Source of the DNA: Treponema sp. CETP13
GTDB lineage: Bacteria; Spirochaetota; Spirochaetia; Treponematales; Treponemataceae
DNA: 64,000 nucleotides
Assembly: GCA_001885315.1 (NCBI GenBank)
Contig: MLPZ01000013.1
Coordinates: 1-64,000 of the forward strand
Direction of reading: 5' to 3'
In this document: in pieces, positions 9,760 through 51,481 of the stretch
How positions within the stretch are numbered: position 1 is the first letter of the stretch
Layout: every line of letters begins with the position of its first letter
Made by a program: the position numbers and the translations under genes
Notes under the pieces: model-generated
Told to the model about the DNA's origin: nothing
Database searches by the model: none
Seen by the model: only the letters and a program-made list of their open reading frames with translations

Positions 9760-10497
9760 TTAGCCCTCAAAATCATCTGCATAATTTGCGTTAGTGTAAA
9801 CGTTTTGAACATCTTCACACTCTTCTAATCGATCAACGAGTTTTTGAACTTTTGCTGAGGTTTCTTTGTCTAAATCTGTATATGTATCTGGAACCATGTC
9901 TACAGAAGCAGAAAGGGATTCAAATCCTTTTCCATTAAGTGCCTCAACAATATCATTAAAAGATGACGGATCAGTAGTAACAGTAATAATTCCATCTTCC
10001 GTAGCAATATCTTCTGCTCCTAATTCCAAAGCGATATCCATTAACTCATCTTCATCTACTTTTTCTGCATCATATTCAATTTGACCAAGTCTTTTAAACA
10101 TATAAGAAACAGAACCTGTAGCGCCCAGATTTCCACTTGATTTATTAAAAATATTACGAACATCAGCTGCTGCACGATTATTATTATCAGTTAGAACATC
10201 GACAAGAATAGCTACTCCGCCAGCTCCATATCCTTCATATGTCTTTTCTTCGTAATTTGCACCGCCAAGATCACCTGTCCCTTTTTTTATTGCACGGGTT
10301 ATATTGTCTTTAGGCATGTTTGCACCGCGTGCTTTTGTGATAGCGGTACGAAGACGTGGATTTGAATCAGGATCTCCTCCACCCATTCTTGCTGCAATTG
10401 AAATTTCTTTGATAAACTTTGTAAACATTTGACCGCGTTTTGCATCTGCAGCGCCTTTTGCATGTTTAATAGTTGCCCATTTACTATGTCCTGACAT
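9760..10497 (-). CDS. yebC: YebC/PmpR family translation/regulatory protein
   Basis: 245 residues, full length. The family start MSGHSKWATIKHAKGAADA is exact, followed by FTKFIKEI, NPRLRTAITKARGANMPKDNI and the GYGAGGVAILVD block. YebC-family proteins have been described as transcription regulators and, more recently, as ribosome-associated factors that help translation through proline stretches; which applies here is not visible. AAGGAG lies six bases before the ATG. A strong terminator follows. The gene is divergent from neuB and shares a 92-base intergenic region with it. Confidence 0.95.
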   Translation of the reverse strand: MSGHSKWATIKHAKGAADAKRGQMFTKFIKEISIAARMGGGDPDSNPRLRTAITKARGANMPKDNITRAIKKGTGDLGGANYEEKTYEGYGAGGVAILVDVLTDNNNRAAADVRNIFNKSSGNLGATGSVSYMFKRLGQIEYDAEKVDEDELMDIALELGAEDIATEDGIITVTTDPSSFNDIVEALNGKGFESLSASVDMVPDTYTDLDKETSAKVQKLVDRLEECEDVQNVYTNANYADDFEG

Positions 10498-10553
10498 CGG
10501 AACTCCTTATGTATGCCTTACATGGCATTATCTTTAATAATATTAAAATTAGG

Positions 10554-10582
10554 TTGAATTATAGTATCATAACCTATACAAT
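10554..10582 (+). promoter_or_regulatory. Promoter of the NeuB-like gene, predicted leaderless
   Basis: TTGAAT (10554-10559), 17 bases, TACAAT (10577-10582), then seven bases and ATG (10590). Transcription would start at or next to the A of the ATG. No Shine-Dalgarno is present. Confidence 0.6.
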
Positions 10583-10589
10583 AACGTCA

Positions 10590-11723
10590 ATGAGTATACA
10601 AAAACTACCTTATAATCATACTTTACTAGTTGCTGAAATCGGGACTTCTCATGGTGGTTCTATTGAAAAAGCTAAAAAATTAATTGATGTAGCTGCTACA
10701 GCAGGTGCTGACTGTATAAAATTTCAATGGGTATATGCAAATGAAATACTTCATCCAAATACAGGAACCGTTAAACTTCCTGGAGGAAACATACGATTAT
10801 ATGATCGTTTTAAAGAGCTTGAAGTAGAACCTTCTTTTTTTTCTAAGATGAAAGAATATGTCCATTTAAAAGGAAAACTTTTTAGTTGTTCTCCGTTTGG
10901 ATTAAAAAGTTTAAGAGAACTTTTTAGTCTAAAACCAGATTATATAAAAATTGCTTCCCCTGAATTAAATCATTATCCTTTATTAAAAGAATTAGTTCAC
11001 CTTGAACTAACCCTACCTCCATCTGAGCGCATACCAGTAATAATTTCCACAGGAGTTTCTGAACTTGCTGACATAAAAAACGCTGTAAAAATTCTTTCAC
11101 CTATTATTCAACCCAATACAGACTCATTAATACTTTTACATTGTATAACAAGTTATCCGGCTCCTGAATCTGAATATAATCTTGCAACCTTACAGACATT
11201 AACAGATATCTTTTCTTTACCGGTTGGGGTGAGTGATCATTCTTTAAATCCTACATTAATTCCTGTTTTAAGCATTGCTTGCGGATCTTGTACAATCGAA
11301 AAGCATATAACTCTTAATAATGATGATAGTGGATTAGATGATCCTGTTGCCCTCAACCCTAAAGATTTTACAAAAATGGTAAAAGCCGTTCGGCGAGCCT
11401 CCAATCTGGATATGGAAGGACTATACTCAGATTGCTTTTATGAATTCGGTGAAGAAACTGTAGAAAAAATTATTGGTGATGGAATAAAACATTTAGCTAT
11501 TTCTGAGAAATCTAATTATGGCCGCACAAATCGTTCTATACATGTTATGCATGATATGAAGGCAGGTGATATTATCAAAGAAAATGATATAGCTGTTTTA
11601 CGTACTGAAAAAAAACTTATGCCTGGTATGAGTCCTATTTATTATGAGCAACTTTTTGGGAAAAAACTATTACACTCTGTTGCATCTGGTCAAGGTCTTC
11701 TAGAAAAAGATGTCATTTTCTAA
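10590..11723 (+). CDS. NeuB/SpsE-type N-acetylneuraminate (nonulosonate) synthase
   Basis: 377 residues from the ATG of MSIQKL; a longer frame from 10473 is open but would run antisense through the start of yebC and across the promoter. The TIM-barrel synthase domain shows LVAEIGTSHGGS, CIKFQW, LFSCSPFG, YIKIASPEL, PVIISTGVS, HCITSYPAP, VGVSDHSL and CTIEKHITL. The C-terminal 60-70 residues (RSIHVMHDMKAGDIIKENDI to GKKLLHSV) form the SAF/antifreeze-like domain. The enzyme condenses phosphoenolpyruvate with a hexosamine derivative to make a sialic-, legionaminic- or pseudaminic-acid-type sugar; the precise substrate is not readable. No other nonulosonate genes are adjacent. Confidence 0.88.
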   Translation: MSIQKLPYNHTLLVAEIGTSHGGSIEKAKKLIDVAATAGADCIKFQWVYANEILHPNTGTVKLPGGNIRLYDRFKELEVEPSFFSKMKEYVHLKGKLFSCSPFGLKSLRELFSLKPDYIKIASPELNHYPLLKELVHLELTLPPSERIPVIISTGVSELADIKNAVKILSPIIQPNTDSLILLHCITSYPAPESEYNLATLQTLTDIFSLPVGVSDHSLNPTLIPVLSIACGSCTIEKHITLNNDDSGLDDPVALNPKDFTKMVKAVRRASNLDMEGLYSDCFYEFGEETVEKIIGDGIKHLAISEKSNYGRTNRSIHVMHDMKAGDIIKENDIAVLRTEKKLMPGMSPIYYEQLFGKKLLHSVASGQGLLEKDVIF

Positions 11724-38686: not shown

Positions 38687-39955
38687 ATGACAATAGCAAT
38701 ATTTACAGATACATTTTATCCTATGGTAAATGGAGTTGTAACAGCAATATTGAACATTGCAGAACCTTTTGCAGATAAAGGCCATAAAGTAATTATAGTT
38801 ACTCCAAATATAAAATCAAAAGAAACATATTCATATCCAGGAATAATAGTAAAAAAGATAAAATCTTTACCAGCTGGATTTTATGAAGATTTCAGATGGA
38901 CACCACCAAACAGTTATTCAACCTATAAATTATTAAAAAATGAAAAAGTAGATATTGTCCACTTTACTTCACCGTGGACAACCTGTTATTTAGGAATAAA
39001 ACTTGCAAGAGCTTTAAATATCCCAGTTATAGGTACTTTTCATACATATATTTCAGATCCTTCGTATTATGAACATGCTCTTAAAGGAATAATTAAAATA
39101 TCAGAGAAAACTCCTTGGAATTACATTAACATGTACTATAATAAAGCAGATTTCATTACTGCTCCTAGTCAATACACTTTAAATGATATGCATGAAAATG
39201 GGTGTAACGTAAAAGGAAAAGTTATTTCAAATGGGATTGATTCAAAAATATTTGATAATTCTAACTGGAAAGATTTTAAAGAAAAATATCAATTAGGAAA
39301 TAATACGGTGCTTTTTTTTGGACGAATTGCCCAAGAAAAAAATTTACCAGTTCTTATTGATGGTTTTACAAAAGCATGGGAAAAAGAAAAAGATTTACAA
39401 CTTTTAATAATTGGAGAGGGGCCATTACGTAAATCATTTCAAAAAAAATTACGTACAGAACCTGTGAACAAAAATATAATTTTTACAGGAGCTATTCCTC
39501 ATGAAGATTTAGTTAAATCTGGAGTTTTTAAAGCCTGTTGGCTTTGTGCAACTGCTTCGAAAACTGAAAATCAGCCAATGACAATTCTAGAAGCTCAAGT
39601 TAATGGAATGGTATGTATTGGTGCCAATGCGAAAGGAATTCCAGACTTAATTGTTAATAATGAAAATGGATTGCTTTTCTCGGCTGATAATTCAAATGAA
39701 ATTTCAGATGCTATATTAAAACTTTATCATGATGACAAATTGTATACTAAGTTTAAAAAAAATACGTTAGAGCTTATAAAAAAGCATGATATAACAAATA
39801 TAACTCTTGCATGGGAAGATTGTTATTCAAAAGTAATAGAAAATTACCAAAAAGGGTTATATGAAAAAAAAGATTATCTTCACACTAGAGAAATTTTATC
39901 AATTTTTAAAGAATTTAAATTTGATTACAAAGCATTACTTCATAAAAAAACATAA
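38687..39955 (+). CDS. GT4 glycosyltransferase
   Basis: 422 residues. Same GT-B type as the divergent gene 35918-37159: IAIFTDTFYPMVNGVVTAI, GTFHTYISDPS, VISNGIDSKIF, FFGRIAQEKNLPVLIDGF, IGEGPLRKSF, and TENQPMTILEAQVNGMVCIG (donor site). The two are paralogs, possibly acting in sequence on glycolipids. AGGAAG lies eight bases upstream of the ATG. Convergent with the threonylcarbamoyl-AMP synthase gene. Acceptor unknown. Confidence 0.82.
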   Translation: MTIAIFTDTFYPMVNGVVTAILNIAEPFADKGHKVIIVTPNIKSKETYSYPGIIVKKIKSLPAGFYEDFRWTPPNSYSTYKLLKNEKVDIVHFTSPWTTCYLGIKLARALNIPVIGTFHTYISDPSYYEHALKGIIKISEKTPWNYINMYYNKADFITAPSQYTLNDMHENGCNVKGKVISNGIDSKIFDNSNWKDFKEKYQLGNNTVLFFGRIAQEKNLPVLIDGFTKAWEKEKDLQLLIIGEGPLRKSFQKKLRTEPVNKNIIFTGAIPHEDLVKSGVFKACWLCATASKTENQPMTILEAQVNGMVCIGANAKGIPDLIVNNENGLLFSADNSNEISDAILKLYHDDKLYTKFKKNTLELIKKHDITNITLAWEDCYSKVIENYQKGLYEKKDYLHTREILSIFKEFKFDYKALLHKKT

Positions 39956-39978: not shown

Positions 39979-40533
39979 TTAATGTATTCTTAGAGATCCT
40001 TGTCTTAGAATTCTTATCGTTCCATCTGTAATATCAACTATTGTTGAAGGTAGTGCATTTTTTCTATCACCATCATCAATAATTAAAGCAACTTCTTTTG
40101 AAAATTCTTTTTTGATATCTTCTATTGTTTCAAGGATTGAATGGCCAGAACGGTTTACACTTGTTGAATATAAAGGAGTATTACATTTAGAAAGAACAGA
40201 ACGAATCCATTCGTCCGCAGGACATCTATATGCCGTAGTCGTTTCCGAATTTTTATCCTGAACAATAATAGTTAAAGCTCCTGGCCATAAGTCAATTAAT
40301 TTTTTTGGTACTACAGATTTTGTTAATGAATAAATATCCTCAGGATTAGAAATTAACTGTATAAAAGGTTTTGTCTCTGCTCTCCCCTTAATCTTACGTA
40401 TTTCTTTATCTGTTTGTGGAACAATTCCAGAAAATCCATATACAGTATCAGTAGGAATAATCGCTATTTTTCCAGAATTTAATATCGTTGCTGTTTTATC
40501 TATTGATGTATTATTATTTTTGCTTAAAATCAT
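39979..40533 (-). CDS. L-threonylcarbamoyladenylate synthase (Sua5/YrdC/YwlC family)
   Basis: 184 residues, the single-domain YrdC size. It makes the threonylcarbamoyl-AMP used for t6A37 in ANN-decoding tRNAs. Motifs: IAIIPTDTVYGFSG, IRKIKGRAETKPF (the KxR...K nucleotide site), WPGALTIIV, YRCPADEWIRSVL and LPSTIVDITDGTIRILRQG at the end. CAGGAG lies before the ATG. Its start overlaps the end of the DivIC-like gene by 20 bases. Confidence 0.93.
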   Translation of the reverse strand: MILSKNNNTSIDKTATILNSGKIAIIPTDTVYGFSGIVPQTDKEIRKIKGRAETKPFIQLISNPEDIYSLTKSVVPKKLIDLWPGALTIIVQDKNSETTTAYRCPADEWIRSVLSKCNTPLYSTSVNRSGHSILETIEDIKKEFSKEVALIIDDGDRKNALPSTIVDITDGTIRILRQGSLRIH

Positions 40534-41020
40534 TAAAATCTCCTGAAGTTATAACCGCTGTATTTAAAACCATATTTTTAGAAGAATTTGTCGAGATATG
40601 TAATAACATGAATAAAGATGAAATCAAATTGATAATTAAGAAAACGAAAAATCCTGCAAATTTTGCCATCCAATCTGGCATATACACAATTTTAGGCTTT
40701 TGAATACGATTGCCAGCATCATACACTTTTTTAGAATAGGGTGTTATGCCGGTAATCTTTACTAAATTTTCATTATCAGATACAAATCCCATCGAATGAG
40801 CAAAAGCAATTATAATATCTTTATCTGATTCTAGAGATTTTTTGTCTATACGTATACTTTCATTTAATTCTTGTAGATTGCTTACATTTTCAGTCACGGC
40901 TATCTTATATTCTTGTAATTGATGATATGCCCAAATGCCCTGTTTTCCAAAACAAACAGAAAGCAGAACATACACTAATACTCCAACAAAAATAGTATTC
41001 ATTAATTTAATATAGTTCAT
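40514..41020 (-). CDS. DivIC/FtsB-like membrane protein
   Basis: 168 residues. Transmembrane helix at about 8-25, a coiled-coil-like stretch (LQEYKIAVTENVSNLQELNE, about 35-66), then the DivIC-type segment DIIIAFAHSMGFVSDNENLVKI. A second hydrophobic helix (AKFAGFFVFLIINLISSLFML, about 119-140) is unusual for FtsB/DivIC, which have one. It probably takes part in division-septum assembly; the call rests on the coiled coil and following motif. It is immediately followed by the threonylcarbamoyl-AMP synthase gene. Confidence 0.65.
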   Translation of the reverse strand: MNYIKLMNTIFVGVLVYVLLSVCFGKQGIWAYHQLQEYKIAVTENVSNLQELNESIRIDKKSLESDKDIIIAFAHSMGFVSDNENLVKITGITPYSKKVYDAGNRIQKPKIVYMPDWMAKFAGFFVFLIINLISSLFMLLHISTNSSKNMVLNTAVITSGDFNDFKQK

Positions 41021-41173: not shown

Positions 41174-43891
41174 ATGTCTTTAAACAAAGAAGATCTTGAA
41201 GAATACGGTGTTTGGGTAAAAAAATCAGCAAAAAAGGATGAGGAAGAAAACAAGCAAAATAAAGCATTCCAAGATGTAAAAATAGATTCTCAAAATGATA
41301 CTGAGCATACCAACGCAGATAGTGAAAATTCTGACGAAAACATTTCCGATATTTTTGAAACTGAAGATATTTTTCAAAGTATTGTTAACCAAGAGGCTGA
41401 AAATATTTCGGATTCAGATGATGATAATTCTATATTTGTTGATGAAAAAACTCCGGATTCACAGATTGAAAATGTTTCATCAAACTTTTCTGAAAATAAA
41501 ACAGATTCTTTTGAACCAGTAACTACAGAAGATATCGATACCGATTCTTTTATAGATGAAACAGATTCCTCTGAACCAGAAACTACAGAAGAAGTCGATC
41601 TAGATTCTTTTATGGATGAAACAGATCCCTCTGAACCAGAAACTACAGAAGAAGTCGATTTAGATTCCTTTATGGATGAAACAGATTCCTCTGAACCAGA
41701 AACTACAGAAGAAGTCGATTTAGATTCATTTATAGATGAAACAAATTCCTCTGAAGCAGAAACTACAGAAGAAGTCGATTTAGATTCTTTTATGGATGAA
41801 ACAGATTCTTCTGGACCAGGAATTACAGAAGAGATTGATTTCGATTCATTTATGGATGAAACAGATTCTTCTGCTAATACAAACGAGATAGAAGACGAAG
41901 CTCCGATTGAAATGGATCTTGAATTTGATGATAATTATACAGTTGAAATGGAAGAGAATAAAATGGAAGAAAACACAGAACCTAACAAACCCGAAAAAAT
42001 TACAAATGAAATTACAAATGAACCAATTGTAAATGCACAAGAAGAAGAACCTAAAACACAAAATGACAGTGAACCAAATGAAGAATTTGACCAAGTAACT
42101 GATTTTGATGATTTATTAAGTTCAATGGATGCTCCAGAATCTCAACAAGTTCAAGCCTCTAAGGAAAGTTTACACGAAGAGAATCAAGTTTATAATATAC
42201 GTGTTATTGCTGATGAAGATTTAGATAATAAAGAAATTGTTGAAGAAGAAGAAGCTATCGCTGCACAAACAACAAAACCTACTGAAACAAAACAAGAATC
42301 TGATTCTCCTATTTTAAATACAGCATCAGAAACTAAATCTACTGATAATAACAACGTTAACGCAGAAATTACTTCTGCAAGCAATGAATTATTGCAAAAT
42401 ATCATACAAGAGATTTCGGGGCTTAGAAAAGAAGTTAGTAATCTTAAAACAGAATTTGAAGGATTAAAAAAGTCTACACCTCAAAAAACGGCTGATTCTG
42501 ATTTAACTTTAGAAAAAAATGTAGAAAATCAAACTGAAAGAAAACCTTCTGGTTTTTTTAATGAAAATGAAGAAGATGACACAATTGCCCTTTCAGGCTC
42601 AGAACTTAATAATATCTTAAACAATGCTGACTTATCTGTTAGTGATTATAACGAAGAAGAAGAATCACCAGAAAAAGATACAAAAGATTTAACTGACACT
42701 GATGTTTCTTTGAATGATACAGATAATGATGATAATAATAATTTTTATGAAGATTCTAACAATCCAGAAGAAATAATCACACCAGCTCTTAAATTAGAAG
42801 AAACAGAATTAGAAGAACCTAAAATTGAAGATTTAGATATAGATAATATTGACGGGTTTGAAGATAGTACAAATCAAGATTTAGGTGACATTGAAATTCC
42901 TGTTGCTGAAGATTTAGTAGTTGATTCCTCATCTGAAGATTTCTTAGATGATACACCTACACAACCTGTTTTACCAAGTGAAGAAAACCTATCTTCAAAC
43001 GATGATTCAATAGAAGAACTTGATTTAGATATCGACTCAGATCCGGATACTGATATTAAAACTCATATTGCTGAAAATTTAGATGAAGAACTTAATGAAA
43101 CCTCAGATGATGTAGAAAACGGTTTTTATGACTCATTAGTTAATTTAAATTCAGAAGAAGAGATTGAGGATACCGAAGATTTATCTGAAAATGATTTAGA
43201 AGATATGAGTGACATAGATGAAGAATTAGATGTTGAACCCCTACAAAATGAGCCTTCTGAAAGTGGAGAGTCACCAGTCGAAGACGTTTTTTCTGGAGAT
43301 GAATGGAATGAAAAAACAACTGATAATGATGAGTTAGCTCCAGATACTACTGAGGAAATTAATCCAGATGAAACTATTGTAGAAGATGATGAATTAACTG
43401 AACCTCAAGCTAATGATGAATCAGCTCTAGATACTACTGAGGAAATTAATCCTGAAGAGACTATTGTAGAAGATGATGAATTAACTGAACCTCAAGCTAA
43501 TGATGAATCAGCTCTAGATACTATCGAGGAAATTAATCTAGATGAAACTATTGTAGAAGATGATGAATTAACTGAACCTCAAGCTAATGATGAATCAGCT
43601 CTAGATACTACTGAGGAAATTAATCCTGAAGAGACTATTGTAGAAGATGATGAATTAACTGAATCTCAAGCTAATGATGATAATATAACTGAAAATGAAA
43701 CAGAAGAAGAAACAGAAGAAGAAACAGAAGAAGAAATTATTCCTGTCGAGATGAGAGATGAAATAAAATCTGTACTTACTTATATGGATCAGCTTCTTGA
43801 AAATCTTCCAGAAGAAAAAATTGCTGAGTTTGCTCATTCTAAGTATTTTGATACATATAAAAAACTTTTTAATGAGCTTGGATTGTCATAA
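41174..43891 (+). CDS. Large acidic repeat protein
   Basis: 905 residues, extremely rich in Asp, Glu, Ser and Thr, without signal peptide or membrane segment, so probably cytoplasmic. Residues about 110-235 hold six 20-residue repeats of the type ETDSSEPETTEEVDLDSFMD. Residues about 738-835 hold three 29-residue repeats of the type DDELTEPQANDESALDTTEE and a partial fourth, then three ETEE units. A short coiled coil lies near 412-435 (ISGLRKEVSNLKTEFEGLKK). The last 50 residues (VEMRDEIKSVLTYMDQLLEN, then FAHSKYFDTYKKLF) are non-repetitive and look like a folded binding module. I do not recognise the family. It is the first gene of the operon with two Maf proteins. Confidence 0.85.
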   Translation: MSLNKEDLEEYGVWVKKSAKKDEEENKQNKAFQDVKIDSQNDTEHTNADSENSDENISDIFETEDIFQSIVNQEAENISDSDDDNSIFVDEKTPDSQIENVSSNFSENKTDSFEPVTTEDIDTDSFIDETDSSEPETTEEVDLDSFMDETDPSEPETTEEVDLDSFMDETDSSEPETTEEVDLDSFIDETNSSEAETTEEVDLDSFMDETDSSGPGITEEIDFDSFMDETDSSANTNEIEDEAPIEMDLEFDDNYTVEMEENKMEENTEPNKPEKITNEITNEPIVNAQEEEPKTQNDSEPNEEFDQVTDFDDLLSSMDAPESQQVQASKESLHEENQVYNIRVIADEDLDNKEIVEEEEAIAAQTTKPTETKQESDSPILNTASETKSTDNNNVNAEITSASNELLQNIIQEISGLRKEVSNLKTEFEGLKKSTPQKTADSDLTLEKNVENQTERKPSGFFNENEEDDTIALSGSELNNILNNADLSVSDYNEEEESPEKDTKDLTDTDVSLNDTDNDDNNNFYEDSNNPEEIITPALKLEETELEEPKIEDLDIDNIDGFEDSTNQDLGDIEIPVAEDLVVDSSSEDFLDDTPTQPVLPSEENLSSNDDSIEELDLDIDSDPDTDIKTHIAENLDEELNETSDDVENGFYDSLVNLNSEEEIEDTEDLSENDLEDMSDIDEELDVEPLQNEPSESGESPVEDVFSGDEWNEKTTDNDELAPDTTEEINPDETIVEDDELTEPQANDESALDTTEEINPEETIVEDDELTEPQANDESALDTIEEINLDETIVEDDELTEPQANDESALDTTEEINPEETIVEDDELTESQANDDNITENETEEETEEETEEEIIPVEMRDEIKSVLTYMDQLLENLPEEKIAEFAHSKYFDTYKKLFNELGLS
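41501..41880. repeat. 60-bp tandem repeat array (20-residue unit)
   Basis: About six in-frame copies, 60-base period, most alike in the middle and diverged at both ends. Confidence 0.9.
43385..43680. repeat. 87-bp tandem repeat array (29-residue unit)
   Basis: Units begin at about 43385, 43472, 43559 and 43646 (last partial). Copies 1 and 3 appear nearly identical at the DNA level, which suggests recent duplication. Confidence 0.9.
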
Positions 43892-43893
43892 AA

Positions 43894-44388
43894 ATGGGAT
43901 TGTTCCATAAAGTTAATTATCTAATATATAAGGATTTTGGAGGTTTTTTAAATGGAGCTAAAAGATATTCTATCCAAAATCCTTTATATAACAATGATGT
44001 TTTTTTTAAAAAATTAGGGAATAAATATTCCGATTGTAAAGCTGTTCTTTTAATTAATATTAAGAACAGCTTTTCTTTATTTGCAAGTTTTAATGTAGAT
44101 AAAATTACAGAGAAAAAAATTGTCTCTTCAAAAGATTTTTGGGATGGTACATTCCCTTTCCAAAACAAACTTACTGAAATCAATAGTGATGAACTATTTC
44201 AATATAGACAATTATTTGGACAAACTGATAATGAAAATTTTAACAAATTGTTTTTAGAACGTTTTTTTCTTAATAATAATGAATATATAAATTTGATTAC
44301 CTGTTCTGATTCATCTACTATAAATTTTGATAAAATACAAAGACTTAACAATGACATTAAGTTTTTAGTAAAGTATCTTTCTTGTTAA
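43894..44388 (+). CDS. Protein of unknown function in the Maf operon
   Basis: 164 residues, no signal peptide or membrane segment. Mixed composition with many aromatic residues (VNYLIYKDFGGFLNGA; DFWDGTFPFQNK). It begins two bases after the acidic repeat gene and ends 12 bases before the first Maf gene, so it belongs to the operon. I do not recognise the family. Its fixed position between the repeat protein and the glycosyltransferases suggests a role in the same pathway; this is inference. Confidence 0.75.
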   Translation: MGLFHKVNYLIYKDFGGFLNGAKRYSIQNPLYNNDVFFKKLGNKYSDCKAVLLINIKNSFSLFASFNVDKITEKKIVSSKDFWDGTFPFQNKLTEINSDELFQYRQLFGQTDNENFNKLFLERFFLNNNEYINLITCSDSSTINFDKIQRLNNDIKFLVKYLSC

Positions 44389-44400
44389 ATTTGGGTTATT

Positions 44401-45927
44401 ATGAATTATGATATAAAAATTACACTTGCTAAAAACGGCGAACATATTTGTAAAATCAATAATATCTATATGAATTCTAGATATAATCCATCTGTTGAAG
44501 CAGAAAGATTTGTAAATAATGTGTCATGTGATTTTATTCCTTCAATTGTAATATGTATAAATCCATGTCTTTCATATTGTTTACCTTATTTTAGGCAAAA
44601 ATTTCCTACTTCAAAGATTATTGCTATACAATGTGTTAAATATTTTAAAAAAGAAGATTCGCAATGGGATCATGTTATATATCTTGATAATTATAAAACA
44701 TTAAGTGAACGTATTTTTAATGAACTCGGAGAGGAAAAGCTCTTTTCAACATTTATAAATCTTTGGGTCCCATCTAATAAAATATTTAGTATAGAAAACG
44801 ATTTAATCGTAAAAGAAATTCACAAAGCTATTCTAAAAGCTCGCGATGTCATAGGAACTAGACTACACTTTAGTAAAAGATGGGCATTTAATTCTATAAG
44901 ATTTTTTAATCTTATTCATAAGGTTTCTATTTTACAAAGAGGAACACAAACAGTTTTTTTAGCTGCATCGGGACCTTCTTTATTTGATAGTTTTTCGTTT
45001 TTAAAAACTCATCGTAAATACTTATTTATAGTAGCAGTGTCTTCTGCTTGTAAAGCTCTTTTAGAAAATAATATATTACCAGATATTGTAATTTCGACGG
45101 ATGGAGGATATTACGCGAAAAGACATCTTGACTGTATTGTAAAGAAAGACATCCCAATTATACTTTCTGCAGAAAGTAGTTTTCCTGCAAAATTACCAAC
45201 AAGAAATACTATTATACCAATTTCTTATAAAGACGGAATTGAAAGTTTTTTGTTTCAAGAATGTAATATTCCACATTTAATTGCGTCTAGAAATGGAACT
45301 GTTAGTGGGACTGCAATTGATTTGTTTTTAAACTTAACTACTAACAATATTCTAACAGGAGGTCTGGATTTATCTTCAAACAAAGGGTTCATTCATATAA
45401 AACCCAACATCTTAGAAGAAATTGATAGCACTAATGATACTTTGTTGTACCCTATTTCAACAAGGATTGCAAAAAATAGTTTACAGAATCATTCCTTAGA
45501 AATATATAGATCTTGGTTTCAAAATCTCGACTCCGCCAAAAGTAATAGAATTGTTCGCCTATTCAAGAAACCTGAAGAGCAAAATCATCTATTTAATATT
45601 AAGGACATTTCTGTTTTAGAAGCACAACAATTGATTAATAAATCTTTTGAACCTATTGTTATTAACAAACCATGTACAATTGACACTTATAGTTCACAAC
45701 AAAAAATCCATCATTTTTTAGAAAATACTAAACTTGATTTTTCTAATAATAAATATAATTTTCATTTTATAAAAGAAGCAGCCTTATTAGACTTTCTTTT
45801 ATCAAAAAAATTTCCCAATAATAAAGATCATGTTAATGAATGTATTCTAAAAACAATAAAATTTATAAATTTACTAATACAAAAAAATGAATCTATAAAT
45901 AATTTTTTTAAAGAGGATTCTAAATGA
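44401..45927 (+). CDS. Maf/DUF115-family motility-associated glycosyltransferase (copy 1)
   Basis: 508 residues. The DUF115/Maf central fold is visible: TVFLAASGPSLFDSFSFL, FIVAVSSACKALLENNILPD, VISTDGGYYAKRHL, then SRNGTVSGTAIDLFLNLTT and NILTGGLDLS. An N-terminal segment (NPSVEAERFVN; PSIVICINPCLSYCLPYF) matches the usual Maf N-domain. In Campylobacter, Helicobacter, Aeromonas and others, Maf proteins add nonulosonic acids to flagellin in the cytoplasm. It overlaps copy 2 by ATGA. Confidence 0.82.
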   Translation: MNYDIKITLAKNGEHICKINNIYMNSRYNPSVEAERFVNNVSCDFIPSIVICINPCLSYCLPYFRQKFPTSKIIAIQCVKYFKKEDSQWDHVIYLDNYKTLSERIFNELGEEKLFSTFINLWVPSNKIFSIENDLIVKEIHKAILKARDVIGTRLHFSKRWAFNSIRFFNLIHKVSILQRGTQTVFLAASGPSLFDSFSFLKTHRKYLFIVAVSSACKALLENNILPDIVISTDGGYYAKRHLDCIVKKDIPIILSAESSFPAKLPTRNTIIPISYKDGIESFLFQECNIPHLIASRNGTVSGTAIDLFLNLTTNNILTGGLDLSSNKGFIHIKPNILEEIDSTNDTLLYPISTRIAKNSLQNHSLEIYRSWFQNLDSAKSNRIVRLFKKPEEQNHLFNIKDISVLEAQQLINKSFEPIVINKPCTIDTYSSQQKIHHFLENTKLDFSNNKYNFHFIKEAALLDFLLSKKFPNNKDHVNECILKTIKFINLLIQKNESINNFFKEDSK

Positions 45928-47477
45928 ATGTAAGTTCGTATATATCATTAGAAAAATCTAAAACTGGGATTGATGTACCCATATTCACAAATGGAACCCC
46001 TTCTTGTTCACTTTATAATCCAGAACGGGAAGCCGATTTGTTTGCTAATTTGCCTGAGTTTTCGAATGGATATTACTTTGTAATTGGTGGATATGCTTCG
46101 GGTTTACATATAAAAAAATTGAGAGAAAAATACAAGAATGCTTATATTTGTATTTTAGAAGACACTTTAGCTACCATACAGTTTTGTAAAGAAAACAACC
46201 TTTTAGATTTTATAACTAAAGATCAACGTTCTGTTATTTGTAATATAGCTTCATTAGAAAAAACTTTAATAGAAACATATTTTCCCCCCATACATGGTAA
46301 TTTTATTTTTAAAGCACTGAGATCCTGGGAACAGTTTCATATAGATAAATCTGTAGACATCAAAATTAAAATTGAAGGTGCATTAAAAAAAATATCTGCT
46401 GATATTTCAGTTCAGGCACATTTTGGAAAATTATGGCATCGAAATATCTTATTAAATTTAAAACTTTCTAGTTTATCTGATTTTAAAAGTCTTAATTTCG
46501 ATAAAACTATATTTCCTACACATAAAAAAGCAGTTGTCTGTGGTGCAGGACCTGGATTAGATTATTCTTTTAAGGAATTACTTACAAATCGTGATAACTA
46601 TTACATTGTTGCAACAGATACTTCTTATCCAGTATTATTACAAAAGCACATTATATCAGATGCTGTTGTTACAACAGATGCCCAAAACGTATCTATATAC
46701 CATTTTATAACAGGGATTTCTAAAAGAACGTTGTTTGTATCTGATTTATCTGCTTCCCCTTCTATAGCACGAATAGCGTACAAACAACAATGCACTATTT
46801 TATTTTATGATGGAGGTCACCCTCTTTCAAAATTTGCTAATAATTATAATCTATCAAACAATGATTTACATAGACGGTTTCCTTTTTTTTCAGCTGGAGC
46901 AGGATCTGTAACTCTTGTTTGTTTAGATTTCATTTTTAAAAGTGGATTTACTAATTATGGAGTAATTGGAGCAGATTTTTCATACATAAATGATAAAACT
47001 TATACAAATGGTACGTATCTTGATATATTATTTTTAAAACAATCATATAAACTTAATTCTCTTGAACACCAATACAATAAATTAATGTTTAGAACTCCAT
47101 TAAAAAAAGAATCAGTTATTGTCAAAACCTTATTAGGAACTAAAAAAAGCAATGGAAAGACCACAGAAACACTTATGAACTATCGTATGTCTTTAGATAC
47201 TATTATATTAAAAAATAACAACAAACTAAAACATATAGATAATGACCACTCTACAGAATTTATTCCATTTTTAACTGCTTTACCTTTTAATTTTACACTA
47301 TTTAAAATATCCTTATATAATGTATTAAATAATATAAATCTAAATAATACCTTTGATATTGACTCGATATTATATCCCTATATGGCTTACTATGCGAAAT
47401 ATAATAATACAATTGATTTTAGACAGAAAATTACCGATATAATAAACAAGACAAAACTCTTATGTGAGGAAAATTAA
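45924..47477 (+). CDS. Maf/DUF115-family motility-associated glycosyltransferase (copy 2)
   Basis: 517 residues, a diverged paralog of the preceding gene. N-domain SLYNPEREADLFANLPEFSNG and YYFVIGGYASGLHI; central domain AVVCGAGPGLDYSFKELL, YYIVATDTSYPVLLQKHI, DAVVTTDAQN, then FFSAGAGSVTLVCLDFIF and YGVIGADFSYI. The start ATG overlaps the stop of copy 1 and its own stop overlaps the next start (TAATG), so the genes are translationally coupled. It is expected to be a cytoplasmic glycosyltransferase; donor and acceptor are unknown. Confidence 0.82.
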   Translation: MNVSSYISLEKSKTGIDVPIFTNGTPSCSLYNPEREADLFANLPEFSNGYYFVIGGYASGLHIKKLREKYKNAYICILEDTLATIQFCKENNLLDFITKDQRSVICNIASLEKTLIETYFPPIHGNFIFKALRSWEQFHIDKSVDIKIKIEGALKKISADISVQAHFGKLWHRNILLNLKLSSLSDFKSLNFDKTIFPTHKKAVVCGAGPGLDYSFKELLTNRDNYYIVATDTSYPVLLQKHIISDAVVTTDAQNVSIYHFITGISKRTLFVSDLSASPSIARIAYKQQCTILFYDGGHPLSKFANNYNLSNNDLHRRFPFFSAGAGSVTLVCLDFIFKSGFTNYGVIGADFSYINDKTYTNGTYLDILFLKQSYKLNSLEHQYNKLMFRTPLKKESVIVKTLLGTKKSNGKTTETLMNYRMSLDTIILKNNNKLKHIDNDHSTEFIPFLTALPFNFTLFKISLYNVLNNINLNNTFDIDSILYPYMAYYAKYNNTIDFRQKITDIINKTKLLCEEN

Positions 47478-48754
47478 TGACTACAAAAAAAATACATATT
47501 TTTTCATGGATAATGATTACTATTTATATAGGTGTCTTAGTTTATTTTATTTTAGGGATATCAAATAAAATTTCCATTGGACAGAATTATACAGAAAAAG
47601 AATTTTTTAATACAATTCAAACAATATCACCAATTATAGAAGATCCAAATTCTACAACTGAAGACCTTCAAATACCTATTAAAAATATCTTTGCTAACAA
47701 TTCTAATATTACGGCCTTGCTTATACATTCTAAAAATAGGAATATGATCTTTCCTTCTGATTCAGAATTATTAACAAAAGATTCCTCTGGAAATAAAAAT
47801 TTATCTACTTCCTCTACATTAATTAAAATTTATTCTCATACATCCGATACTTCAGAAGTAACAATTACAATTGCAATGTATTTAATTAATCCTAATGATA
47901 TCTATAAACTTGCACGGGTCTCTTTTTTAATTATACTAGCTGGAACTCTTTTGACGATCATGTTTATATTGTTTATTTCAAATTTAACCATAACTGAATA
48001 CAGGGAACAACCTTCTGAAAAAAAAGTTAAAAAAAATAAACCATCTTTTAAAATTAAATCTGAAAATTTAAAACGATCATCTGAATCAAAAATTGACAAC
48101 ATAGAACAATTATCTAAATTAAAAGTTGACAACATGGGAGAACCATCAGAATCAAAACTTGAGAATATTGGAGAATATGTAGACGAAGACGAAAATTCTA
48201 ATAATATAAACAAAAAAATCAGTGATTTAGAAAAACAACCAGTATCTGATCCTTTAAATGTATTTTCTGCAATAACAGGATATTGTCACGAAAAAGATTT
48301 AGATTCTAGACTAGATTCTGAATTATCAAAAGCAGCTTCTGCCGAATATGATCTTTCATTAATATTATTTCAAATCCAAAACATTAATCATGATGATAAA
48401 TTAAGTAAACAAATTATTAACATCATCAATTCATATTATGATGACAAAAACATGATTTTTAATTATAAAAACAATGGATATGCCTTACTCTTACAATATA
48501 AAGACTTAAATGATTCAATGGAATTTGCTGAAAAATTATATACTTCTGTGCACGAACTATTATTAAAAAATGACGTTGAGGCCAATATTGGGGTTGGAAT
48601 TTCAACTCGGTCAGTCAGAATCATTCCTAATAGCAGGCTTATCTTAGAAGCAGAACAAGCTTTACACCACGCATATGAAGAACCTGATTTGCCTATTGTT
48701 GCTTTTAAAGTAAATCCAGAAAAATACAGACAGTGTTTAAAGGAATCAATGTAA
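47477..48754 (+). CDS. Membrane protein with degenerate GGDEF-like domain
   Basis: 425 residues. Two transmembrane helices (about 10-31 and 148-172) flank an extracytoplasmic sensor-like loop of about 115 residues. A charged linker with SESKIDN/SKLKVDN/SESKLEN repeats (about 195-235) leads to a GGDEF-type fold (about 265-420): LDSELSKAASAEYDLSLILFQ, then NYKNNGYALLLQY and a VEANIGVGISTRSVR strand. Where the cyclase has GG(D/E)EF there is NNGYA, so it should not make c-di-GMP. It could bind c-di-GMP or a partner. Last gene of the operon. Confidence 0.75.
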   Translation: MTTKKIHIFSWIMITIYIGVLVYFILGISNKISIGQNYTEKEFFNTIQTISPIIEDPNSTTEDLQIPIKNIFANNSNITALLIHSKNRNMIFPSDSELLTKDSSGNKNLSTSSTLIKIYSHTSDTSEVTITIAMYLINPNDIYKLARVSFLIILAGTLLTIMFILFISNLTITEYREQPSEKKVKKNKPSFKIKSENLKRSSESKIDNIEQLSKLKVDNMGEPSESKLENIGEYVDEDENSNNINKKISDLEKQPVSDPLNVFSAITGYCHEKDLDSRLDSELSKAASAEYDLSLILFQIQNINHDDKLSKQIINIINSYYDDKNMIFNYKNNGYALLLQYKDLNDSMEFAEKLYTSVHELLLKNDVEANIGVGISTRSVRIIPNSRLILEAEQALHHAYEEPDLPIVAFKVNPEKYRQCLKESM

Positions 48755-50530: not shown

Positions 50531-51481
50531 TTATTTTAATAGTTTTAGTATATCGTCAGTTGATAAAATATAATCTTTTATAATTAATTTTTTTGTACCA
50601 ATCTTATCTACAGTAAAAGAATTTGTTTTTTTGGCAAGGTTTAACAAAATATATCCTAAACCTTGAGCTTGTGTATTTGTCATATCTAAATTAACAGTAA
50701 TGTTATAATCAGATACTGTTGATTCATCTTTATTAACAGTATCTATTGTATATAAAGGTTTAAAAGATATCAAAGCATTATCAATTGCAAGTTTTATTGC
50801 TTTAGCCCCTAAAAGCTGAGGAACCAAATTTCCAGGTTCCATTATAAACATAGTAATGTCAGTAGGATTATTTAAAAAATCAATTTGATTATTAGTGAAT
50901 CTTTGTAATTTTGATGTATCCGAAAAAATATTTTCTTTATAATTTATTAAATTCTTTTGAAGAGAAGCAATTGAATTAGAAGATACAAAAATCGTTTGAG
51001 AATTAGGCAAAGATGTTTGAATATTAGTATTTATATTATACCAATAATTATAATTATTTGTATCTTCTCCTTCAAATGATTTTTTGTAAAACCCATTTTT
51101 CTTTGTAAATAAAATATTAGATGTAAAAAATGGATAGTTACCTTGTAATATAGCTTCAAAAGAAGGAGATAGATTATCGCTATCAAAATTATATGCTATA
51201 CAAATTCTATCTGTTCGTTTAAAAAAAGTATCGAAAGATTTTTTTGATAACGAATTATCAGCTTGCTCTGGATCAACCAGAGTAAGCTGTAACATTTCGT
51301 TTAAAATATCTTTATTACCAGAAACTGGAATGGAAATGTACAAATCAGCATTTGGAGTCAAAAGATAAAATGGTTCAATTTCCGTTTTTTTTAGTTTGAA
51401 AGAGGAACATGAACTAAAAAAAATTAATGATAGTAAAAAAATATTTACTACCATTGTTATTATCTTATTAGGCTTTAACAA
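50531..51481 (-). CDS. Lipoprotein of unknown function
   Basis: 316 residues from a TTG at 51481, which supplies the basic residues of the signal peptide; an ATG at 51454 is the alternative. Lipobox FFSSC (about 23-26). The mature protein begins FKLKKTEIEPFYLLTPNADL and contains VSSNSIASLQKNL and an ITMFIMEPG segment; no family recognised. The start overlaps the end of ileS by 14 bases and the upp gene follows 21 bases downstream, so an ileS-lipoprotein-upp unit is likely. Confidence 0.7.
   Translation of the reverse strand: MLKPNKIITMVVNIFLLSLIFFSSCSSFKLKKTEIEPFYLLTPNADLYISIPVSGNKDILNEMLQLTLVDPEQADNSLSKKSFDTFFKRTDRICIAYNFDSDNLSPSFEAILQGNYPFFTSNILFTKKNGFYKKSFEGEDTNNYNYWYNINTNIQTSLPNSQTIFVSSNSIASLQKNLINYKENIFSDTSKLQRFTNNQIDFLNNPTDITMFIMEPGNLVPQLLGAKAIKLAIDNALISFKPLYTIDTVNKDESTVSDYNITVNLDMTNTQAQGLGYILLNLAKKTNSFTVDKIGTKKLIIKDYILSTDDILKLLK

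Follow-up and report, generated by a model that had tools for sequence, protein, structure and literature searches.

Results and Discussion

A Tightly Packed Five-Gene Block in Treponema sp. CETP13

The stretch of DNA analyzed here, which we call the window, comprises the first 64,000 nucleotides of contig MLPZ01000013.1 of Treponema sp. CETP13, whose genome amounts to 2.54 Mb in 21 contigs. Between positions 41174 and 48754, five open reading frames (ORFs) follow one another on the forward strand and encode, in this order, a long acidic protein (AR), a small protein (gene 2), two glycosyltransferase-like Maf/DUF115 proteins (MAF1 and MAF2), and a membrane protein with a degenerate GGDEF domain (GG), which together may form a flagellar glycosylation operon (Table 1). 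An earlier reading made from the letters alone (hereafter the sequence-only reading) had described the five genes as tightly coupled, and this is what we find: gaps of 2 and 12 nucleotides separate the first three genes, and overlaps of 4 and 1 nucleotides link MAF1 to MAF2 and MAF2 to GG. The genes are in all likelihood co-transcribed; the promoter scan (57 found, 51.3 ± 7.9 expected) and the terminator scan (1 found, 1.8 expected) stayed at chance level and are silent on a single transcript. A scan for RNA elements gave none, and a phage or defence origin of the block was rejected: There was no phage match, PHROGs returned nothing useful, and PADLOC returned nothing.

Table 1. Features of the window discussed in the text, with their coordinates.
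Feature	Length	Coordinates	Strand	Basis or remark
Gene 1, AR (acidic protein)	905 aa	41174..43891	+	ORF list, composition, motif alignments
Tandem array in AR, 60-bp unit (20-aa acidic repeat)		41499..41873	+	6.2 copies, 90% matches
Tandem array in AR, 87-bp unit (29-aa acidic repeat)		43324..43680	+	4.1 copies, 92% matches
Gene 2, GAF-domain protein	164 aa	43894..44388	+	fold search of homologue model
Gene 3, MAF1, DUF115/PF01973 glycosyltransferase-like	508 aa	44401..45927	+	E 9.8e-22
Gene 4, MAF2, DUF115/PF01973 glycosyltransferase-like	517 aa	45924..47477	+	E 8.6e-22; ATGA overlap with MAF1
Gene 5, GG, two hydrophobic helices and non-catalytic GGDEF fold	425 aa	47477..48754	+	model, fold search
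FtsB/DivIC-like gene		40514..41020	-	conserved divergent neighbour
TsaC/Sua5 (YrdC domain) gene		39979..40533	-	conserved divergent neighbour
NeuB (nonulosonic-acid synthase family) with SAF domain		10473..11723	+	no positional tie to operon

The Two Maf Proteins and Their Restriction to Flagellated Spirochaetes

That genes 3 and 4 encode two Maf/DUF115 proteins was claimed from the sequence and is firmly supported by the profile searches: both score 77–80 bits against PF01973 (MAF_flag10), for which the curated cut-off is 34.6. The best relative in the structural database is the solved flagellar Maf 5mu5 (E 4.8e-6 for the MAF1 profile and 1.3e-13 for the MAF2 profile), followed by the weaker matches 8sd5 and 8sbu. 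Both proteins possess long extra regions around the DUF115 core, as Mafs do, and the NCBIfam model PseD matches 8 of the 24 MAF1 family proteins. In the Maf tree the MAF2 clade receives a support of 0.985 and the recovered MAF1 clade one of only 0.12, which leaves the branching order among the Mafs open. MAF1 and MAF2 have company in the cell: among the 39 DUF115-bearing genomes, which include CETP13 and the treponeme genome G031, 37 hold four DUF115 matches and two hold five, so that four DUF115 proteins constitute, almost without exception, a stable paralogue set in DUF115-bearing spirochaetes. As a side observation, MAF1 of the Treponemataceae genome G040 (L090:5734-7215) is broken into three short ORFs next to intact MAF2 and GG genes, which reflects either a pseudogene or a sequencing error.

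We then compared the distribution of the Mafs with that of the flagellum by profile searches across the class Spirochaetia, for which genomes were chosen to include GG-positive and GG-negative members and thus do not form a random sample. MAF2 is present in 55 of the 59 flagellin-positive genomes and in none of the 15 flagellin-negative ones (Fisher p 2.1e-12, uncorrected for relatedness). The four flagellated genomes without MAF2 all belong to one family with small genomes (0.9–1.2 Mb), presumably the Borreliaceae. Two families (f4 and f9) contain some members with both MAF2 and flagellin and some with neither, and a third (f12) has neither. This observed restriction of the Mafs to flagellated spirochaetes makes it probable that the block is an accessory system for flagellar glycosylation. 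The same profile bears on the improbable alternative that the DUF115 pair modifies another target, such as a small pterin-like molecule (the case of archaeal MptE), a lipid, or some other protein of the flagellum or envelope: PF01973 is named after that pterin kinase, 8sd5 and 8sbu are among the weaker matches, and the two or more further DUF115 genes of each genome could handle flagellin. Yet the best match is a solved Maf, the long extra regions are Maf-like, and the pair is absent from every flagellin-less genome tested.

A possible sugar supply for such a reaction is encoded in the same genomes. NeuB (PF03102) was detected at E 9.3e-49 or better in 39 of 39 DUF115-bearing genomes tested; among five genomes devoid of DUF115, G573 has it, G410 gives a weak match only, and G569 as well as both genomes of family f6 have none. 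As the family also occurs in many unrelated bacteria that served as control genomes, this profile is consistent with a nonulosonic-acid donor and no proof of it. Kurniyati et al. (2017) reportedly described a pseudaminic-acid-type glycan on FlaB of T. denticola. The NeuB gene of CETP13 stands isolated between yebC and a DUF6675 gene, and its scanned neighbours include no other nonulosonic-acid genes.

Conservation of the Gene Order in Treponemes and Other Spirochaetia

To establish how widely the arrangement is kept, we searched 274 genomes of the same family at the protein level and found MAF2 in 233 (E up to 1e-15) and GG in 243 (E up to 1e-5), with neighbourhoods that read AR, gene 2, MAF1, MAF2, GG. 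Upstream of the block, most of these loci show two divergent genes with the sizes of tsaC and ftsB, and downstream follow convergent genes sized like those for the TPR lipoprotein, the uracil-phosphoribosyltransferase-like protein, the TP0453-like protein, and ileS of CETP13; in the relatives, only the sizes and strands of the flanking genes were used to assign them. All of the 80 best MAF2 matches in a scan of named genomes fell to the genus Treponema or to similar uncultured spirochaetes. Neighbourhood conservation had been put forward by the sequence-only reading as the check on its proposal, and it holds at these loci: 77 of the 80 keep the order AR, MAF1, MAF2 (in 14 of these, no gene 2 lies between AR and MAF1), nearly all with GG behind and with most junctions within a few nucleotides. 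Since these loci were picked by MAF2 similarity, they are silent on genomes without MAF2. In other families of the class, genes 1 to 4 are again found together as a block, with gene 2 recognized by position and often too divergent for recognition by sequence, and GG can stand directly behind the block, behind at least one other gene (in the one case tested a Memo-like gene on the opposite strand), or tens of kilobases away, and it lies apart from the block in families f2, f4, and f5.

All five genes are present in G031, a single contig of 1.14 Mb that we take to be T. pallidum Nichols on account of its gene content and positions. Its MAF1, located at about 195.45–196.87 kb on the reverse strand and 470 residues long, matches TPChic0177, which has been placed at 195519–196931 (PMC3373638). 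Its MAF2 falls by position on TP0174–TP0176, which the old annotation lists as three genes and which turned out to be fused in a relative (PMC3105029). Going by gene order, gene 2 would correspond to TP0178, AR to TP0179, and the entire block to about TP0173–TP0179. TP0179 has been reported as a hypothetical protein that shows fixed non-synonymous differences from lineage to lineage (PMC11371664), and tp0179 appears in published lists of genes with such differences or with predicted recombination. A functional description of the T. pallidum locus tags or of spirochaete DUF115 proteins was not found in the open-access literature searched, subscription papers lying outside that search; within this literature the block is the undescribed system that it had been supposed to be.

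Among the neighbours of the block in CETP13, a GT4 glycosyltransferase gene (38687–39955, forward strand) is flanked by a conserved gene of 287 residues and tsaC. Its top NCBIfam row is alpha-monoglucosyldiacylglycerol synthase at a score far under the cut-off, and a gene of that size is missing from the tsaC-adjacent position in most relatives inspected. On the other side, a homologue of TP0453, the outer-membrane-associated lipoprotein of T. pallidum, is encoded at 50531–51481 on the reverse strand, adjoining ileS.

The Acidic Protein: Conserved Ends and an Expandable Body

AR agrees with the sequence-only picture of a 905-residue cytoplasmic acidic repeat protein: It has an isoelectric point of about 4.05, a net charge of -265, and 34% Asp plus Glu, it holds two tandem arrays, and the hydrophobicity scan gave zero hydrophobic segments. 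The chain is presumably disordered. It is marked by an N-terminal YGVWVK, by EDDTIALSGSELNNI in the middle, by a coil-like segment around residue 405, and by a C-terminus that is conserved over about residues 850–905, the latter with a mean column identity of 58% in an alignment of 20 proteins. The pattern [YF]GVW[VI]K is carried near the N-terminus by 109 of 124 proteins and the C-terminal signature by 122 of 124; motifs resembling EDETIALSGDELDNI are present in 57 of 130. While these motifs and the C-terminus stay conserved, the length of the homologues ranges from about 250 to 1800 residues, with a median of 922 among 78 named proteins. Flagellated genomes mostly carry a long AR, with exceptions, and the C-terminal segment is kept in proteins of about 210 residues in the flagellin-less genomes G482, G569, and G573; in the latter two a DivIC gene adjoins the short AR. 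Because the protein has only about 210 residues in these flagellin-less genomes and is mostly far longer in flagellated ones, AR seems to consist of a short core and an expandable acidic linker. Two stricter correlations were rejected: YGVWVK is no Maf-specific handle, given that the flagellum-less G482 has YGVWIK in its short AR, and the long acidic body is not strictly linked to the Mafs, given that G010 has a short AR together with them. The same may apply to G441 and G505, in which the reading frame begins at the contig end. The linker of these two genomes (L231:3-707, L234:10130-10906) is a near-pure EEPI(A/V) repeat that differs from other lineages, and the linker repeats thus seem replaced rather than conserved.

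The sequence-only reading had considered AR as a scaffold or as a glycosylation substrate. We regard it as quite unlikely that AR is itself the Maf substrate, that is, a cytoplasmic or polar acidic glycoprotein with sugar-modified repeat Ser/Thr residues. AR is immediately co-operonic with the Mafs in nearly all loci, its long repetitive body contains Ser and Thr (17% in total), and it shrinks to its short form in three genomes that have neither flagellum nor Maf; however, this Ser/Thr content hardly exceeds the 14–16% of the other operon proteins, short forms accompany Mafs in G010 and possibly G441 and G505, AR occurs without any Maf, and the characterized Mafs target flagellin.

Degenerate Signalling Folds on Either Side of the Mafs

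Gene 2, which the sequence-only reading had left as an unknown protein, has no significant Pfam or PDB match by sequence and was resolved by fold search alone, using an AlphaFold2 model of the full-length homologue from T. lecithinolyticum (294 residues; mean predicted local distance difference test score, pLDDT, 80.5; predicted template modelling score, pTM, 0.59). Residues 20–154 of this homologue correspond to a GAF domain (5w10, Z 11.3, root mean square deviation (rmsd) 3.1, 133 aligned), and residues 159–294 match GGDEF (4h54, Z 9.1, rmsd 3.8, 128 aligned) at a Z-score that chance arrangements reach as well, so that we are less sure of this second domain than of the GAF domain. PelD (4etx, E 7.6e-5) and DcsBis rank among the top Foldseek rows. 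Most homologues have about 260–330 residues and are predicted to combine a GAF domain with a degenerate GGDEF-like domain; the CETP13 protein stops after the GAF half, as does that of locus L057. Gene 2 has zero membrane segments.

For GG, the proposal of a membrane protein with a non-catalytic GGDEF fold is well supported. Hydrophobic segments span residues of about 8–26 and 150–168, and the structure model (pLDDT 83.7, pTM 0.45) places a periplasmic domain, tentatively of alpha/beta fold, between two long helices, followed by a low-confidence linker (residues 181–257). Residues 257–413 adopt a GGDEF fold (5euh, Z 20.2, rmsd 2.4, 150 aligned). The motif GG[DE]EF occurs in 0 of 136 homologues, and therefore GG is not a cyclase. 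At the position of the inhibitory site (RxxD), many relatives read K-F-R-D and CETP13 reads D-D-K-N. With gene 2 being a GAF protein, in most relatives probably extended by a degenerate GGDEF domain, degenerate signalling folds flank both Mafs.

Proposed Function

Drawing on genomic comparison and structure models, and inferring function from the phylogenetic profile, we give about even chances to the following reading: The block would be a Spirochaetia operon for the cytoplasmic glycosylation of filament proteins of the periplasmic flagellum, equipped with an AR scaffold and non-catalytic partners. In Aeromonas, direct binding to flagellin has been reported for a Maf, which works in the cytoplasm ahead of export (PMC4065374). 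In the same manner, MAF1 and MAF2 might transfer a nonulosonic-type sugar, made via NeuB, to flagellin Ser/Thr residues before export, and might work alongside the cell's further DUF115 proteins. AR would serve as a disordered scaffold whose short motifs and C-terminus, spaced by the expandable acidic linker, hold or place the enzymes, while gene 2 and GG would be non-catalytic partners that may tune the Mafs through ligand binding or contact.

Several observations weigh against this glycosylation operon. The AR core and GG persist in genomes that have neither Maf nor flagellin (GG in the flagellin-less G410, G482, G504, G537, G569, and G573), and each must therefore have another role and is not a Maf-only part; GG in particular is a separable member of the block. 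Because AR outlives the Mafs, scaffolding is one of the weakest links. Signalling is another, because some lineages do without gene 2 and RxxD is not conserved: gene 2 cannot be indispensable, as 14 of 80 loci have none between AR and MAF1 and CETP13 keeps only half of it, and the absence of RxxD from its usual site makes c-di-GMP binding by the CETP13 GG doubtful. Moreover, MAF1 of the T. pallidum-like G031 is devoid of the GPSL motif. Finally, no flagellin gene adjoins the block. The sequence-only reading had noted this absence, expecting Mafs beside flagellin; the absence stands, but the phylogenetic profile connects the Mafs with flagella. The remaining strong DUF115 genes of CETP13, two in number, were inspected and do not adjoin flagellin either; since DUF115 genes of this genome usually lack such a neighbour, its absence is no argument against a flagellar role.

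An explanation that is unlikely but deserves consideration is that the block reflects synteny without joint function, with AR serving division or polarity, the Mafs the flagellum, and GG envelope sensing, all merely co-transcribed. AR adjoins ftsB and its core lies beside DivIC in two flagellum-less genomes, and GG leaves the block in three families and survives alone. On the other hand, the genes overlap or nearly touch in most loci, their order is the same over several families, and the long acidic body accompanies Maf in most genomes.

As the block is present in the reduced genome taken as T. pallidum, it provides a function hypothesis for little-known genes of a pathogen and a testable candidate for flagellar glycosylation in an organism that is hard to study. 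The product predicted at the TP0179 position is acidic, cytoplasmic, and free of membrane segments, a point of relevance when its variation is interpreted in vaccine work.

Comparison with Known Systems

The C-terminal domain of GG shares its fold with the GGDEF diguanylate cyclases PleD and GcbC at a Z-score of about 20, and differs from them by the loss of the cyclase motif in all 136 homologues. PelD is the GAF plus degenerate-GGDEF receptor for cyclic di-GMP (c-di-GMP) of the Pel polysaccharide system. Most gene 2 homologues show the same domain order and likewise lie beside a glycosyltransferase; unlike PelD, gene 2 has no membrane segment, and the CETP13 copy is without the second domain.

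Polar scaffolds of the PopZ type, to which AR may bear some resemblance, self-assemble via a C-terminal helical domain. The polar landmarks HubP/FimV resemble AR in their very long, acidic, length-variable cytoplasmic region, conserved C-terminal segment, and flagellar link. However, AR shows no LysM match, membrane segment, or TPR (E up to 1), whereas HubP/FimV have a transmembrane segment, a C-terminal FimV TPR domain, and, by definition (PMC12918733), a periplasmic LysM domain, so that we speak of analogy and not of membership. We consider it unlikely that AR acts in spirochaetes as a polar scaffold or condensate, a separately arisen functional analogue of HubP/PopZ that would concentrate the two Mafs near the flagellar export site; the GAF and pseudo-GGDEF proteins would then gate the Mafs, and flagellin glycosylation would be both spatially organized and signal-gated.

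The closest likeness of the enzymes themselves is to the Maf/PseD flagellin glycosyltransferases of Aeromonas, Campylobacter, Clostridium, and Magnetospirillum (5MU5), with which MAF1 and MAF2 share the DUF115/PF01973 core and long flanks; among the Spirochaetia tested, they are likewise confined to flagellated genomes, with NeuB in the same genomes. What sets the treponeme block apart from these systems is that two divergent Mafs are encoded in one operon with AR and GAF/pseudo-GGDEF proteins, away from flagellin: If the proposed function is true, Maf enzymes would here be joined by an acidic scaffold and by partners of the pseudo-GGDEF type.

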